From: Thermococcus zilligii AN1
GTDB lineage: Archaea; Methanobacteriota_B; Thermococci; Thermococcales; Thermococcaceae
Reading direction: 5' to 3'
Assembly (NCBI RefSeq): GCF_000258515.1
Contig: NZ_AJLF01000001.1
Span: forward strand, 62,001 to 126,000
Length of the DNA stretch: 64,000 nucleotides
Below, piece by piece: positions 53,558-61,459 of this stretch. Every line of letters begins with the position of its first letter. Within the stretch, counting starts at the first letter, position 1. The translations under genes were made by a program, and so were the position numbers. A model generated the notes under the pieces. The model saw only the letters and a program-made list of their open reading frames with translations. It made no database searches and had not been told where the DNA came from.

Positions 53558-56050
53558 TTACTCCAGCCCCTTCCACTTCACCAACCCTAAGAGGAACCGG
53601 TGTGGGAGCTTTTCGTGGTGGGGGTGAATCCTCACAGCGTAGTGCCAGCAGGGGTCGCCGAGATGCCTGAGGGCGTTGCCTTCGTAAACGTAGAGCCACT
53701 CGCTCTCCCCGGCTTCCTGGGGATGCCTGAGCTCGACTATGTGGGGCTTCTCTATTTCGTAGCCCTGAGCCCTGACACCGTAGTAAAGTTCGACCTCAAC
53801 GTCTTCAGGCCTGAGCCCGTCAAGGTAGACCCCGAGCTCGAGCCTCTTGTCCCTGATCTTGGCCTCCCTTATCTCCACGTTGCCCCAGGATGAGACGACC
53901 CTCTCCTTCCAGGCCGCTATTTCCCTGGCCCCCTTGTAGTTCTCCCTCGTGAGCCAGATGTAGTTGCTCATGGCCTTGGAGTAGAACCTGTCCATGTACT
54001 CCTTGACCATCCTGTGCGTGCTGAAGCGCGGGGCTATGCTCTTTATGCTCTCCTTCATCATGTATATCCAGCGGCTCCTGTTCCCGTAGTAGGTGGGGAT
54101 TATCTCCTTCTCGAGCAGGGTGTAGAGGCTCTCAGCGTCCTTCGCGTCGTCCTCTTCGCTCTCCGGCTCGGTGGTCTCCTCCCCAATGACCCAGCCGTTT
54201 TTCCCATTGTAGCCTTCAACCCACCATCCGTCGAAGATGCTCGCGTTGAGGACACCGTTGAGGCCGGCCTTCATGCCGCTCGTCCCGCTTGCTTCAAGCG
54301 GTCTGCGCGGGTTGTTGAGCCAGACGTCGACTCCAGCGACCATGAGCCTCGCGCTCCCCATGTCGTAGTTCTCGAGGACGAATATCTTGCCCCTGAACTC
54401 CGGCATCTGGCTGACCTCGTAAACCCTCCTCAGGAACTCCTTCCCAGCCTCGTCGCGCGGATGGGCCTTCCCGCCGAAGACTATGTAAACCGGCCTTTCT
54501 GGGTTGTTGAGGATTTTCTTCAGCCTCTCAAGGTCGCTCAGGATGAGAGTTGCCCTCTTATAGGTCGCAAAGCGTCTGGCAAAGCCGATTATGAGGGCGT
54601 TCTCGTCTATCTCCGGTATCGGGTCATCGGTTCCGAGCCTCCTGTTCCTCTCCATTGTCTTCTCCCTGAGGAACTCTATGAGCTGTCTCTTGGCCTCGAG
54701 GTGGGCTCCCCAGAGCTCTTCATCCGGGATCCTTTCCACGGCGTACCAGATGCCCTCTATGTTGGTGTGCTCCCTCCAGACCTTGCCGATGTAGCGGTCG
54801 AAGAGCTTCCTCATCTCGTCGTGGACCCACGTCATTGTGTGGACGCCGTTTGTGATGCCCTCTATAGGGATCTCGTTGAGGGGAACTCCGGGCCAGAGGT
54901 CTTTCCACATGCGCTTGCTTACCTCCGCGTGGAGCTGGCTTACGCCGTTGACGTAGCTCGAAGTTCTTATTGCAAGCAGGGTCATGTTGATCTGGTCGCC
55001 CTCGCGGCCGAGTTCGAGTAGCTCCTCCCTTCCCTCGAGGAATTTTGAAAGCCTCTTCCTAACTTCCGCGATCGGGAACCTGTCGTGGCCTGCAGGAACC
55101 GGCGTGTGGGTGGTGAAAACCGTGGTTCCCCTGACGATGCTCAAAGCTTCCGTGAATGTGAGGCCTTTTTCCATGTACCAGGCTATTCTCTGGAGGTTGG
55201 CAAAGGCGGGATGCCCCTCGTTGAGGTGAACCACACCGGGCTCGATGCCGAGGGCCTGGAGCAGTCTCATTCCGCCTATTCCGAGGAGGATCTCCTGTTT
55301 TATTCTCTTGTCCATCTCGGCGTTGTAGAGGTAGTCGCAGATCGCCCTATCCTCCGGGCTGTTCTCGGGCACATCTGTGTCAAGGAGGTAGAGCTTGGCC
55401 ATGCCGACGCTGACCTCAAAGGCCCTCGCGTAGACGATCCTGTTTTCAATGGGGACCTCAACGAGTAGGGGTTTTCCGTCTTTGCTTAGAACAGGCTTTA
55501 TCGGCATTTCCTCGGGCCTGTATTCCGGGAATATCTCCCTCTGCCTTCCGTCCCTGTCTATCTCCTGCCTGAAGTAGCCGTGCTTGTAGAGGAGGCCTAT
55601 AGCTATGAAGGGAAGGCCGAGGTCACTCGCGGTTTTGAGGTGATCCCCGGCGAGGATTCCGAGGCCACCGGAGTAAATCGGGAGGCTCTTGCTTATGCCG
55701 TACTCCATGCAGAGATAGACTATCGGTTTGTCCCATTTGGGGTAGTTGGTCGAGAACCACGTTGATTTCGGGTTCATGTATGCGGTAAACTGGTCCATAA
55801 CGAGCTCGTAGAGGTTCATGAAGTCGTCATCCTTGAGGAGCTCCCAGAACCTCTCTTCGGGCGTGTCAAGAAGGAGCTTGACCGGGTTCTTGTACTCACG
55901 CCAGTGTTCGGAGTCTATGTACTCCCAGAGCCGGGTGGCACGTCTGTTCCAGCTCCACCAGTAGTTATAGGCCAGTTCTGCGAGATTCTCCAGCGGGTAG
56001 GGGAGCTTCGCCCTTATTAAATTCTCAACTGTGTGGGAAACGTCCGCCAT
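53558..56050 (-). CDS. glgP: Alpha-glucan (maltodextrin) phosphorylase
   Basis: 830-residue GT35 phosphorylase of the short archaeal type, releasing glucose 1-phosphate from maltodextrin or glycogen. Visible motifs: AYNYWWSWNRRA, MEYGISKSLPIYSGGLGILAGDHLK in outline (active centre near 105-130), LNEGHPAF, TTHTPVPAGHDRF, GFARRFATYKRA, and the PLP-lysine region EASGTSGMKAGLNG near 610. ATG 56050 follows AAGGTGGTTGCC. A TGM-like site lies at 56064-56080 between TATA (about 56098-56105) and start. PEPCK and the inactive phosphohexomutase follow upstream. Confidence 0.97.
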   Translation of the reverse strand: MADVSHTVENLIRAKLPYPLENLAELAYNYWWSWNRRATRLWEYIDSEHWREYKNPVKLLLDTPEERFWELLKDDDFMNLYELVMDQFTAYMNPKSTWFSTNYPKWDKPIVYLCMEYGISKSLPIYSGGLGILAGDHLKTASDLGLPFIAIGLLYKHGYFRQEIDRDGRQREIFPEYRPEEMPIKPVLSKDGKPLLVEVPIENRIVYARAFEVSVGMAKLYLLDTDVPENSPEDRAICDYLYNAEMDKRIKQEILLGIGGMRLLQALGIEPGVVHLNEGHPAFANLQRIAWYMEKGLTFTEALSIVRGTTVFTTHTPVPAGHDRFPIAEVRKRLSKFLEGREELLELGREGDQINMTLLAIRTSSYVNGVSQLHAEVSKRMWKDLWPGVPLNEIPIEGITNGVHTMTWVHDEMRKLFDRYIGKVWREHTNIEGIWYAVERIPDEELWGAHLEAKRQLIEFLREKTMERNRRLGTDDPIPEIDENALIIGFARRFATYKRATLILSDLERLKKILNNPERPVYIVFGGKAHPRDEAGKEFLRRVYEVSQMPEFRGKIFVLENYDMGSARLMVAGVDVWLNNPRRPLEASGTSGMKAGLNGVLNASIFDGWWVEGYNGKNGWVIGEETTEPESEEDDAKDAESLYTLLEKEIIPTYYGNRSRWIYMMKESIKSIAPRFSTHRMVKEYMDRFYSKAMSNYIWLTRENYKGAREIAAWKERVVSSWGNVEIREAKIRDKRLELGVYLDGLRPEDVEVELYYGVRAQGYEIEKPHIVELRHPQEAGESEWLYVYEGNALRHLGDPCWHYAVRIHPHHEKLPHRFLLGLVKWKGLE

Positions 56051-56063
56051 GGCAACCACCTTA

Positions 56064-56080
56064 TATCATCGACGGTGATA
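56064..56080 (+). promoter_or_regulatory. Thermococcales glycolytic motif (TGM)-like operator of glgP
   Basis: TATCAT-CGACG-GTGATA, one base off the palindromic consensus TATCAC-N5-GTGATA recognised by the TrmB-family regulator Tgr. It lies downstream of the presumed glgP TATA box (TTTTTAAGG on the minus strand near 56100), the position associated with repression of glycolytic genes when sugar is absent. The regulator gene is not in this window. Confidence 0.72.
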
Positions 56081-56142: not shown

Positions 56143-58017
56143 TCAAGACCCCTCAAAAGCAAAGGGGCTTATGTAGTCGCCGTACTTCTCCCTGGCCTCA
56201 AGGAGGCGCTTCCGCTCTTCCCCAAGAACCTGGAACAGCTCCTTAGGAACGTCCTCAAGTTTCCCGTAGATTCCCTCGATGCGCTCTATCTTCGCCAGAA
56301 GCTCCGGAACCCTTACCGTGAACTGCTTCTCGTAGGCCTCCCTCGTGTATTCTTTGTTCAGGACTTCCTTGAAGAGCCTTCTTAAATCCTCGTACTTCGG
56401 TATGTAGCCTATCGGCGTTTCTATGGCATCGACGTCACCGTGGACCCTCAGCTCCATCCACTTGAGCCAGACTGCCTTGTCGAGCTTGTGGTTGAGCCAG
56501 TTGCCCTTTTCATCGCGGAGGAAGTAGTTGACGGCGAAAATCTTTGGGATCTTCTTCAGCTTTCTGCCGAACTCAAGGTAGTTCCTGAGGTAGTCGCCGA
56601 GGTGAACGCTCATGAAGTCGAGGATTGCCATGGGGTTGAATTCCCTGATGCCCTCTTTGCCGAGCGTTGCCGCGGTCGTTTCGCTCTCGAGGGAGGCACC
56701 CATCGTTATGACGCCGTGCTCCCAGTTGAAGGCTTCCCTCACAGGCGGCCAGGTGTCCTTATCGCGGCCGCCGAATATCATGCCTCCGATTTCGACACCG
56801 CACGGGTTCTCGAGGGCCTCTAAATCCGCGTTGGGGAAGTGTTCAAGCGAAACGGTGAAGCGGGCGTTCTTGTGGCTCGGGGGTATCTCCTTGCCCTCCT
56901 TGTCCTTCTTGCCTTTCCACCACTTTCCGCTGTGGTTTTCCCCCTCATCGGGAATTTCAATGCCCATCCCGTTCCAGTAGGGCTTTCCGTCTTTTACTAA
57001 AACGTTGGAGAAGATTATCTCGACCGGGGAGTGGAGTACCTGCCATATTATCGGGTCGTCCTCCGGGTTGATTCCCTCGATGATGCCGAAAACACCTTTC
57101 TCCACGTTCGCTCCTCTCGCTATTCCATTGACCGGGAGAATGAACGTCAGGTCGTCGCCCACTATGTTCTCCCAGCTTATCATGGCGGTCGACGTTTTCC
57201 CGCACATGCTCGGGTAGGCACCGGTGAAGTATGTCTTTCTACCATGCGGGCCGTTCACCCTCATCAGGAACATGTGTTCGCTGAGCCAGCCCTCTTCGAC
57301 GGCCCTCTTGATTGTAAGCCTGAAGGCGAGCTTCTTGAGGCCTATCGAGTTCCCGCCGTACTGGGTGTTGACTGAATAAACGGTATCGCCCTCGACGTCG
57401 ATGTAGACCCTCCTCCTGTCGAGGTTCTTGCTCGTCTTCCTCTCGTCAAGTTCTCCAGCCGAGTGGATGAAGCGGAGGAACCTCGTGTTCCTTCCAAGCC
57501 TCTTGAAATCCTCATAGCCTTTCCTGTAAAGGAGGAACTCGGAATGGGCAACGTAAGCGGAATCGGTGAGCTGAACGGCCGGAATCGTGAAGATCGAGTT
57601 TTTAGGCCCGAGGACGAAGAAGCAGACGAAAAGCTCCTTACCCTTCATAACGCCCTTCATAAGCTCGCGTATCTCCTTCAGGCTTTCTTCCCTGTCTTTG
57701 GTGTCAACGTAGGGCAGCTTCTTCCCTTTGGGAACCAGGACGGCCGTGTTGGCCTTGTCTCTGGCCTGGTCATAGTAGTTGTCGTAGTGAACCGTGTGGT
57801 TCGGCGTTTCGAGCATCTTTTCTTCCTCATAGTAGAGGGCCTTCCATTTGACATATCTCTCGTCCTCCTCGCTGTCGGTGCAGACGAAGACCCTATCCGG
57901 CCCGAGCCACTCAATCCAATCCGCTAAAAAAGCGTGTAGCTGGGGGTTGTCTATAGCCTTTATCTTTTCAAACTGCTCTTTATCGAGGAGCTTTTCAAGC
58001 CTCTCAAGGGGTTCCAT
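56143..58017 (-). CDS. pckG: Phosphoenolpyruvate carboxykinase (GTP)
   Basis: 624-residue GTP-dependent PEPCK converting oxaloacetate to PEP (or the reverse) at the gluconeogenic branch. The P-loop PSMCGKTSTAM (about 269-279) carries the catalytic Cys272; GGNSIGLKKLAFRL and NPMAILDFMSVHLGDYL are family blocks. ATG 58017 follows AGGAGGTGGCACC. The TATA ACTATTTAATAC is near 58041-58053. A TGM-like site (58163-58179) is 100-plus bp upstream, shared with the divergent gene, the placement expected for activation of gluconeogenic genes by Tgr. Confidence 0.96.
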   Translation of the reverse strand: MEPLERLEKLLDKEQFEKIKAIDNPQLHAFLADWIEWLGPDRVFVCTDSEEDERYVKWKALYYEEEKMLETPNHTVHYDNYYDQARDKANTAVLVPKGKKLPYVDTKDREESLKEIRELMKGVMKGKELFVCFFVLGPKNSIFTIPAVQLTDSAYVAHSEFLLYRKGYEDFKRLGRNTRFLRFIHSAGELDERKTSKNLDRRRVYIDVEGDTVYSVNTQYGGNSIGLKKLAFRLTIKRAVEEGWLSEHMFLMRVNGPHGRKTYFTGAYPSMCGKTSTAMISWENIVGDDLTFILPVNGIARGANVEKGVFGIIEGINPEDDPIIWQVLHSPVEIIFSNVLVKDGKPYWNGMGIEIPDEGENHSGKWWKGKKDKEGKEIPPSHKNARFTVSLEHFPNADLEALENPCGVEIGGMIFGGRDKDTWPPVREAFNWEHGVITMGASLESETTAATLGKEGIREFNPMAILDFMSVHLGDYLRNYLEFGRKLKKIPKIFAVNYFLRDEKGNWLNHKLDKAVWLKWMELRVHGDVDAIETPIGYIPKYEDLRRLFKEVLNKEYTREAYEKQFTVRVPELLAKIERIEGIYGKLEDVPKELFQVLGEERKRLLEAREKYGDYISPFAFEGS

Positions 58018-58162
58018 GGTGCCACCTCCTGAACTCCTCGGGGTGATGTATTAAATAGTTTACCCGGGAACAACCGGTACTGCGCAGGATATTTAAGTCC
58101 ATCGAACCACAAAGTTTATCACAAGGGCGCCGTCTATATTGGGGGAAAAGCTTGAAAAAGAA

Positions 58163-58179
58163 TAACACTCACGGTGATA
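58163..58179 (+). promoter_or_regulatory. TGM-like operator between pckG and the phosphohexomutase-like gene
   Basis: TAACAC-TCACG-GTGATA, one base off the Tgr consensus TATCAC-N5-GTGATA. It lies in the 177-bp divergent gap, 15 nt upstream of ATG 58195 and about 145 nt upstream of pckG. A further half site TATCAC is at 58117-58122 and a TATA-like ATATTTAAG at about 58090, so promoter layout for the plus-strand gene is unclear. Confidence 0.65.
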
Positions 58180-58194
58180 TGTGGAGGTGATAGT

Positions 58195-58902
58195 ATGGAG
58201 CTGTACTATTCAGAAAAGTTCAAGCCGGAGGAACTGGCGCTGTTGGGGCGTGCAGTGGGTACGGTTGCCCACGGGACAACCATAGTGGGAAGGGACGGAA
58301 GGGCCCTCTCAAGATATGGCAAGAGGGCCATGGTTGTCGGTATCGTGAGCACAGGATCAACCATAATGGACGTCCGCCTCATTCCCCTCATTGCCCTGAA
58401 GGACTTCGCCCACAAAAAGGGTCTTCCCCTGGCGTACGTCTACTACCATGAGGGGGTGAGGGTCGAGGTCAGCGGTCTCGACGCTGAGGAAATAGAAACG
58501 ATACTCCAGACCAGGAGTTTTATTGAGGCCCATCCGAGTGACATCGGCGCGACGGTTTACTATCCCAACGCCCTTGACGATTTCATGAACGACATCCTCA
58601 AGAAGTACCACATGAGCCTCGGAATGAAAGTCCTGGTTGATGCAATGAACACTCCAGCGGTGCTCTTCTTCCCGCGCCTTTCGGAGGCTCTTGGGATCGA
58701 AGTCGAGATAATGAATGACATGATGAGCAGCTACCTTCCCCCGAAACCAAAGGAGGTCTTTCTCCATAAGTTAAAGAAAGAGGGTTACAACTTTGGACTA
58801 CGGTTCAGGCCGGATGGACACGTTGAACTTCACACTGGGGAGGAAGAGGTTGAATTTGGAAGCATGTGGGCTCTGCTGGATCACATTAAGAAGATCTTTT
58901 GA
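58195..58902 (+). CDS. Phosphohexomutase-like protein lacking catalytic motifs
   Basis: 235 residues, about half a normal phosphomannomutase/phosphoglucomutase (about 450). Domain 1: [24 protein letters not shown], then [20 protein letters not shown]; where the active-site (T/S)ASHNP should be the sequence is [16 protein letters not shown], with no serine loop. Domain 2: [20 protein letters not shown]. Where DGDADR metal loop should follow there is [14 protein letters not shown]. So neither phosphoserine nor Mg site is present. It should be a sugar-phosphate-binding regulator or partner, not a mutase. GGAGGTGATAGT precedes ATG 58195. Divergent from pckG under a TGM-like site. Confidence 0.85.
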
Positions 58903-58979: not shown

Positions 58980-59606
58980 GTGGGGATATTCATTGTCCTG
59001 GAGGGCATTGATGGCGCTGGAAAATCCACTCAGGCTAAAATGCTGGCTGAATGGTTTGAAAAAAGGGGCTACGAAGTTGTTCTGACGAAGGAACCGACTG
59101 ACACCGCCTTTGGAAAGCTCATCAGGAGACTCGTTCTGACCGGCGGCAGGGAGGGTATCATAGATGGGGCAAGGATAAGCCATGAGGCAGAAGCACTTCT
59201 CTTCGCTGCGGATAGGGCAGAGCACGTGGACAAGCTTATACGCCCCTCTCTCGAGGCTGGAAAAGTCGTTATCTCGGACAGGTACTTTTACTCCTCTCTT
59301 GCCTATCAGTGGGCAAGGGGCCTTGACCTGGAATGGCTCATAGACCTCAACAGGTTCGCCATCAGGCCTGACTTGGCGGTTCTCCTTGACCTCCCCGTAA
59401 AGGAGAGCATGAGGAGGATAAACCGGAGAAGTTTGAAGAGTGAGTTTGATAAAATTGCTGAACTGCAACGGAAGGTCAGGGAGAATTATCTTAAGCTGGT
59501 CGAAATGTTCCCGGAAATGCGTATAGTCAACGCCCAGAACAGCATTGAAGACATACACAACGACATAGTGGGCCTTATAGAGGAAGAGATCCTTAAAAAG
59601 ACTTGA
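58980..59606 (+). CDS. tmk: Thymidylate kinase
   Basis: 208-residue dTMP kinase, P-loop [12 protein letters not shown] at residues 7-18, DR(Y/H)-type motif [13 protein letters not shown], and the LID region RRINRRS. It phosphorylates dTMP to dTDP for DNA synthesis. GTG 58980 follows GGGAGGTGAAGTCT; upstream residues in the same frame are not family-like. TATA-like ACTATTAAAG is near 58932. The two tRNA genes that follow are on the other strand. Confidence 0.95.
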
Positions 59607-59707: not shown

Positions 59708-59785
59708 TGGTGGGCCCGCGGGGATTCGAACCCCGGACCTCCACCGTGTCAGGGTGGCGTCATAACCAGTCTAGACCACGGGCCC
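59708..59785 (-). tRNA. tRNA-Val (GAC)
   Basis: 78 nt with encoded CCA. Acceptor GGGCCCG/CGGGCCC, discriminator A; anticodon stem CCACC/GGTGG around CTGACAC gives GAC, reading GTC/GTT. T-loop GTTCGAA. Confidence 0.96.
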
Positions 59786-59796
59786 GGCCCAAATGT

Positions 59797-59874
<78 letters not shown>

Positions 59875-59947
59875 ACCCGAAAGCCGTAATCACCTATCTG
59901 GGCGGGTTTATAAATTTTGCGGTGGCAACAAACAAAAAGTGGGAAAA

Positions 59948-61459
59948 TCAGATGTTCCCAATCCTCTGGAGAACCATGCCCTCTATTCTTATTGGCTCTG
60001 TTCTCCTGGCGTAGACTATAGCCTGCTCCAGTCTGGCCTCGCTCCCGGCGTAGATCTTGAAGAGGGGATCGCCCTCCTTGACCTTCTCGCCCACTTTGAC
60101 GTAGAGCTCCACTCCAGCCCCTTTGTCCTCGGGTGCCCCTGCGGCCCTGGCTATTCCCGTTATCGCGCGGTTGTCAATGGAGGTGACGTATCCACTCGTG
60201 GGGGCGACGAAGGTGTATGTTTTGTCCCCCACCGGTATATCTTCCGGCTTGATGTTGGGATCTCCTCCCTGGGCTTCTATGATCTCCTTCATCTTCTCCC
60301 AGGCTTTGCCGCTGTCAAGTATCTCTTTAGCCATCCTCTTTCCAGCCCCTGGAGGGGCAACCCCACCCATCTCGAGCAGTATCCCTGCCAGCCCAGTGGC
60401 TTTCTCTATCAGGCTTCCGGGGCCCTTGCCGGTCATCAGGGCTAAAAGGGCCTCTTTAGCTTCGAGAGCCGGTCCCACGGTGTGTCCTATCGGCTGGCCA
60501 CCGTAGGTTATCGCAACTTCAACGTACTGGCCGAGCCTCTTGCCGAGCTCTATGAAGTCCTTGGCCAGAGCCCTTGCCTGATCGACGGTTTCGACTTTGA
60601 CCCCCTTTCCAGTGGGTATGTCGATGAGGATGTACTGGCTGCCAATGGCGTACTTCTTTGACATTATGCTCGCCAGCATGAGCCCGGTTGGATCGATGCT
60701 TAGGGCACGCTCGGCCTTTATCGTTAGGTCGTCCGCTGGGGCAAGGTTTAGGGCCCCTCCCCACACAAGGCACGCACCGACTTTTTCCACTATGCTCTTG
60801 ATTTCGTCGAGGGAGAACGTCACGTTCGCGAAGACCTCAACAACGTCCGCTGTCCCTGCGGCGCTGGTTATGGCCCTTGAGCTGGTCTTGGGTATGGTCA
60901 GTCCGGCGGCGGCAACTATCGGCACGACGAGGATGTTGGTCTTGTTCCCGGGGACGCCACCGATGCTGTGGACGTCCGTTATCGGCTTCCTGTCGATGTC
61001 GAGCATGTCTCCGGTTTCAGCCATTGCTATTGTCAGAGCGGCTATCTCATCCATGTCAAGGCCGTTTATCTCGAGTGCAGTCACAAAGGAACTTATCTCT
61101 ATATCCCTGAGCTTCCTGTCCACGATGTCCCTTACAATGGCCTCAATCTCCACTTTCCTGAGCTTCTCACCACTCATCTTCTTCTTTATGTAGCGAACGC
61201 TCTCGGGAGTTCCTGCCGGCACGACCTCGACAACTTCACCGTCTGAAAGATTGTGGAGTTGCAGGACATCCTTGCTGACACCCACTTCCCCCGGCTGAAC
61301 AAAGCTGCTTATCACCAGGCTGCCGTAGATGCTCCTTTTGCCGTATTCTATTTTAACGAGGTCATCCGGGTGTAGCTTCGCTGCCTTCGCATCCTCTGGG
61401 TGTATGAAGATGGAGTACCTGTCCGTATACGCATCCACTATCTTCACGGTTGCCTTCAT
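59948..61459 (-). CDS. AMP phosphorylase (archaeal thymidine-phosphorylase family)
   Basis: 503-residue enzyme of the archaeal AMP-salvage pathway, splitting AMP with phosphate to adenine and ribose 1,5-bisphosphate, which then goes to ribulose bisphosphate and RubisCO. N-terminal extra domain [18 protein letters not shown], then the TP/PNP core: [16 protein letters not shown]-type [31 protein letters not shown] and [15 protein letters not shown] 61459 follows GGAGGGAGTGACG; 25 further residues upstream are not family-like. Partner isomerase and RubisCO are not in the window. Confidence 0.94.

Follow-up and report, generated by a model that had tools for sequence, protein, structure and literature searches.

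The closest described relatives of the protein analysed here are the archaeal alpha-phosphohexomutases (PHMs), e.g., GlmM (TIGR03990), the phosphopentomutase (PPM) of T. kodakarensis (9IX8), PGM/PMM (9DU5) and the P. horikoshii protein 1WQA. T. kodakarensis has four ORFs annotated as PHMs, TK1404 among them; one is the phosphopentomutase, and of the other three only TK1108 showed PGM/PMM activity (PMC11940775). TK1404 itself is annotated as a phosphomannomutase (COG1109) (PMC11940775) and adjoins, by locus tag, the PEPCK gene TK1405 (PMC11921379). A search of the literature for a pseudo-PHM acting as regulatory subunit, or for essentiality data, returned nothing usable.

The other system that has to be considered is a 361-aa sugar-1-phosphate nucleotidyltransferase (c2), often encoded in Thermococcales directly upstream of the gene described below. 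It consists of an NTP_transferase domain and a hexapeptide left-handed beta-helix (LbH), as do the GMPP/UGP-type nucleotidyltransferases (NF052502 man1P_GTase_Rv; PDB 8X7S), and its nearest types are mannose-1-phosphate guanylyltransferase and UDP-glucose pyrophosphorylase, but it falls below the curated NCBIfam cut-off of NF052502 (254 vs. 440 bits). The top relatives of c2 in a plasmid collection were single nucleotidyltransferase-LbH-PHM proteins of 832-845 aa from Sulfuricurvum (WP_013449919), Streptomyces (WP_168720635, WP_327713799, WP_331730321) and Nonomuraea, with the same domain order as c2 followed by our protein. The PHM half of these fused proteins also lacks the serine loop, with e.g., FGVRFDPVGE at the metal-loop site, and shares with our protein the RFxPxG signature (R203, P206 and G208 in our numbering) as well as the missing catalytic loops. 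They differ in being a single chain whose PHM half, of about 430 aa, has further domains absent from our protein, and unlike these fused or split nucleotidyltransferase-PHM proteins, the genome studied here has no nucleotidyltransferase upstream. The solved stand-alone protein AQ1627 of Aquifex (2EIU/2EHP; ~120 aa), which matches part of our model (Foldseek 1.8e-4, TMt 0.64), is perhaps another stand-alone PHM fragment.

A half-size phosphohexomutase without its catalytic parts

The window, i.e., the whole stretch of 64,000 nucleotides of Thermococcus zilligii AN1 that was analysed, contains a gene for a pseudo-phosphohexomutase (pseudoPHM) made only of PHM domains I and II (Table 1), in a genome that also encodes three full-length PHMs. 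TK1404 is very probably its orthologue, since it is one of four PHM-type ORFs and its locus tag adjoins that of a PEPCK. The profile matches are faint, with a weak one to PGM_PMM_II and one to PGM_PMM_I that barely passes its Pfam cut-off (23.5 vs. 22.5 bits), and the significant phmmer matches in the PDB were PHMs, with the T. kodakarensis phosphopentomutase on top (3.1e-12). A first AF2 model, with the protein's own family alone as input, was mediocre (pLDDT 78), and a second one, with family and paralogues, reached a pLDDT of 93 and a pTM of 0.89. The model has the two-domain PHM fold, and its closest solved structures are archaeal PGM and PPM (Foldseek 2e-13 to 4e-12, TMq 0.74-0.76). PseudoPHM has the GRDGR segment in common with the archaeal PHMs and is 20-26% identical to them, at about half their length.

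Table 1. Location of the features discussed, numbered from the first position of the window.
Feature	Coordinates	Strand	Evidence
Maltodextrin (alpha-glucan) phosphorylase	53558..56059	-	NF041129 (Thermococcales maltodextrin phosphorylase), 1569 bits
Second TGM-like site, close to the maltodextrin phosphorylase start on its 5' side: TATCATCGACGGTGATA (1 mismatch)	56064-56080		Motif search
PEPCK (GTP), divergent neighbour of the pseudoPHM gene	56143..58017	-	NF003253, 692 bits
PEPCK-pseudoPHM intergenic region, site of the c2 deletion	58018..58194	.	Gene-order comparison
TGM, the operator of Tgr, 32 nt 5' of the pseudoPHM ATG: TAACAC-TCACG-GTGATA (1 mismatch)	58163..58179	+	Motif search
Shine-Dalgarno GGAGGTGAT of the pseudoPHM gene	58183..58191	+	Sequence
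pseudoPHM (PHM domains I+II only), 235 aa	58195..58902	+	ORF, profile search, AF2 model
Short beta hairpin, residues 79-93, at the canonical TASHNP loop site	58429..58473	+	Alignment, AF2 model
Degraded metal-binding loop RFRPDGHV, residues 203-210 (canonical DGDADR)	58801..58824	+	Alignment
dTMP kinase (tmk), next gene 3' of pseudoPHM	58980..59606	+	Sole full dTMP kinase match in genome

Alignment with 19 canonical PHMs shows what has been lost. The phosphoserine loop (T/S)ASHNP is missing from pseudoPHM and from all of its orthologues, the aligned segment being AYVYYHEG, and in the model a hairpin occupies its position. The metal loop DGDADR aligns with R205-P-D-G-H-V210, the N-terminal FGTxGIRG segment is also missing, and the chain stops after domain II, without the sugar-binding domain III and the phosphate-binding domain IV. 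With the phosphoserine loop, an intact metal loop and domains III and IV all gone, pseudoPHM is unable to use the known PHM mechanism. An earlier note on this DNA, made from the letters alone, had described a half-size protein with the segments of domains 1 and 2 of a PHM, stripped of its catalytic parts, and had proposed a structure prediction against PMM/PGM; its description is borne out by the profiles, the alignment and the predicted fold. Only two details change: the metal loop, which it took to be absent, has lost its motif but is degraded rather than deleted, and position 58163, where it began the feature, is the start of the TGM and not that of the gene.

Residues Y81, Y83, Y84 and G87 of the hairpin and R203, F204, P206 and G208 of the metal-loop remnant are invariant in the family, and invariant residues are over-represented in the active-site loop remnants (19/35 vs. 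83/235 overall, p about 0.01, a value that is indicative only, the loops having been chosen by us). This suggests that the old cleft has been retained as a binding cleft. The analysis as a whole turns what is an order-wide "phosphomannomutase" annotation into a defined pseudoenzyme question.

Conservation through the repeated loss of a nucleotidyltransferase

Of 94 Thermococcales genomes, 93 encode pseudoPHM, with identities of 67-93%; the lone exception (G053) is an assembly that is 73% complete. Among 85 distinct sequences, 80 alignment columns are invariant. Beyond the order, a search of 21 genomes from the class or phylum gave no relative at 1e-12, and the matches in the plasmid collection were ordinary PHMs. 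Given this order-wide conservation and the AF2 models, pseudoPHM is no chance ORF.

In 54 of the 78 genomes counted, c2 lies directly 5' of pseudoPHM with a gap of 10-14 nt (four of those copies are decayed), and every intact c2 orthologue adjoins pseudoPHM wherever both were located. The ancestral string is c2-pseudoPHM-tmk, with pseudoPHM as its second gene. In the Pyrococcus-like genomes (L046-L053) the string runs on one strand from a dnaG-like gene (c3) through c2, pseudoPHM and tmk to an SRP54-like gene (c13), c3 and c13 being named by sequence reading. The T. zilligii genome and 27 others have no intact true c2 but only paralogues at 32-37% or a broken copy; these 27 include G053, which also lacks pseudoPHM, and G029, with a broken c2, and some of the negatives are incomplete. 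No remnant of c2 was detectable by tblastn in the PEPCK-pseudoPHM intergenic region of the window, and a relocation elsewhere in the same genome is rejected by best matches that are 32% paralogues.

Stages of this loss are found beside an intact pseudoPHM in five genomes. In G029 c2 is of full length but split over three frames, in G026 it has a central deletion and frameshifts, in G049 and G036 the two ends remain and in G057 just the last 83 codons; the remaining c2-negative genomes with pseudoPHM have no trace of it. In this decay series (L177, L178, L179, L181, L200), four of the decayed copies still end as an intact c2 does and join pseudoPHM across exactly 10 nt, perhaps because this part carries the translation or transcription start of pseudoPHM. 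On the pseudoPHM gene tree the status of c2 has to change 10 times, and well-supported branches force at least eight losses, numbers that are approximate because this is a gene tree and some c2-negative genomes are incomplete.

This amounts to a natural experiment, in which a partner was lost repeatedly and pseudoPHM was kept under unchanged selection, which shows that the second gene has a function in its own right. The median dN/dS of pseudoPHM is 0.064 without c2 (n = 14 pairs) vs. 0.061 with it (n = 273 pairs), and genomes with and without c2 share an identical set of 80 invariant positions. A search for residues specific to the presence of c2 gave no clear signal except I29, I38 and G196, which are altered in the clade of the window. 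From the repeated loss, the unchanged dN/dS and the identical invariant positions it follows that pseudoPHM has a function independent of c2, and its persistence speaks against c2 as its main partner.

The architectural analogy between c2 plus pseudoPHM and the fused proteins is firm, and we do not claim simple descent of the former from the latter. Eight positions of pseudoPHM (17, 40, 65, 96, 114, 203, 206 and 208) match the fused set and not the canonical PHMs, and 11 match the canonical PHMs and not the fused halves; hhalign favours the canonical archaeal PHMs (3.6e-19 vs. 2e-9 for the fused halves). In the tree, where branches are long, a clade of pseudoPHM with the fused halves was neither recovered nor rejected (p-AU 0.47, lnL difference 0.25; with PPM, p-AU 0.35). 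The resemblance could be convergent.

A possible role and its competitors

The most likely reading, to which we give an even chance, is that pseudoPHM is a pseudoenzyme subunit that binds phosphosugars without catalysis, was formerly the partner of c2 and has a further role that has outlived it. Alongside c2 it would stand for the C-terminal half of a nucleotidyltransferase-PHM enzyme as a separate subunit, which would hold a sugar phosphate in the former active-site cleft and so steady or tune its partner. Since pseudoPHM did not change after c2 was lost, we infer a second partner, another sugar-phosphate enzyme or the dTMP kinase, which would be served by the same non-catalytic binding. For this second partner tmk, the only invariant link in the gene order, would be the best lead. 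A fuller scenario, rather improbable as a whole, is that pseudoPHM was recruited as a detached nucleotidyltransferase subunit and later became independently indispensable, surviving at least eight partner losses by way of a second essential target, possibly the dTMP kinase, with sugar-phosphate status thereby coupled to deoxynucleotide supply.

One could go further and regard pseudoPHM as primarily a partner or regulator of the dTMP kinase, or as a coupler of the sugar-phosphate state to the supply of dTTP or dTDP-sugars, a reading that we consider unlikely even if it fares best among the alternatives. The gene order speaks for it: in all 78 neighbourhoods that extend 300 nt or more downstream, from six genera, tmk lies directly 3' of pseudoPHM (spacing 14-153 nt), with a gap down to 14-36 nt in the Pyrococcus-like genomes, and this link alone survives the loss of c2, tmk being moreover the sole full dTMP kinase match. 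However, the 60-150 nt spacing in the other genera may mean mere co-transcription and, to our knowledge, dTMP kinases elsewhere are functional with no pseudoPHM-like partner.

Alternatively, the active site might have been rebuilt and pseudoPHM be an enzyme of another kind, e.g., a phosphosugar isomerase, phosphatase or lyase. Strong purifying selection would fit, as would the many charged or aromatic residues that are invariant around the old cleft (R40, Y41, K43, R44, Y81, Y83, Y84, N174, D175, K184 and R203), but any known catalytic motif is absent and its inferred orthologue TK1404 had no detected PGM/PMM activity (PMC11940775). We hold this to be improbable too. The retention of pseudoPHM after the loss of c2 points to tmk and the old active-site cleft as the places to look for the function.

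PEPCK, the phosphorylase and the TGM operator

The earlier note had placed the protein at a switch between glucan breakdown and gluconeogenesis, from its divergence from PEPCK, with the glucan phosphorylase following and a TGM-like operator in the shared gap. These elements are all real, the PEPCK and pseudoPHM starts being 178 bp apart. Using the consensus TATCACN5GTGATA, with motif and placement rules from PMC4158304, we found two TGM-like sites in the window vs. 0.07 expected by chance, and 17 in the genome vs. one in a reversed-pattern control; the TAACAC form was found again among the other genomic sites. A TGM occurs at -31 to -37 of the pseudoPHM start in 16 genomes (1-2 mismatches), and since all 16 are without c2, it belongs to the arrangement that followed the loss of c2. 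According to PMC4158304, a TGM represses if it lies at the start site, downstream of BRE/TATA, and activates if it lies upstream. Read by this rule, the position of the TGM suggests that the pseudoPHM gene would be repressed when sugars are absent, and the same site might possibly activate PEPCK.

From this context one might suppose that pseudoPHM regulates or assists PEPCK and/or the maltodextrin phosphorylase at the switch between glycolysis and gluconeogenesis. The retention of the TGM in the c2-lacking genomes and the presence of another at the phosphorylase start are in its favour, but we find it distinctly doubtful. PEPCK is divergent from c2, or from the pseudoPHM gene where c2 is gone; c2 stood between them in the ancestral order, and its deletion made PEPCK the neighbour of pseudoPHM. 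The adjacency in the window is a by-product of that deletion. No PEPCK was found in the fetched flanks of any of the eight Pyrococcus-like genomes, nor in those of G093 and G035, and pseudoPHM is equally conserved in genomes that lack a nearby PEPCK and in those without any TGM-like site upstream. The linkage to PEPCK and phosphorylase is therefore rejected as an ancestral conserved context, and the placement at the switch is not supported; the comparison of gene order across Thermococcales that the note proposed singled out tmk instead. It serves as a caution that the deletion of an intervening gene can create an attractive neighbour.

That pseudoPHM is a decaying pseudogene or an annotation artefact, as its half size and vanished catalytic loops might suggest, has practically no chance and is ruled out by its near-universal presence in the order, a near-constant length (about 233-241 aa), the lack of stops and a dN/dS of about 0.06.

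Sequence reading also assigned an AMP phosphorylase-like gene (pentose bisphosphate pathway) near pseudoPHM, on the opposite strand at 59948-61458, and two tRNA-like stretches near 59710-59880, between that gene and the pseudoPHM side.
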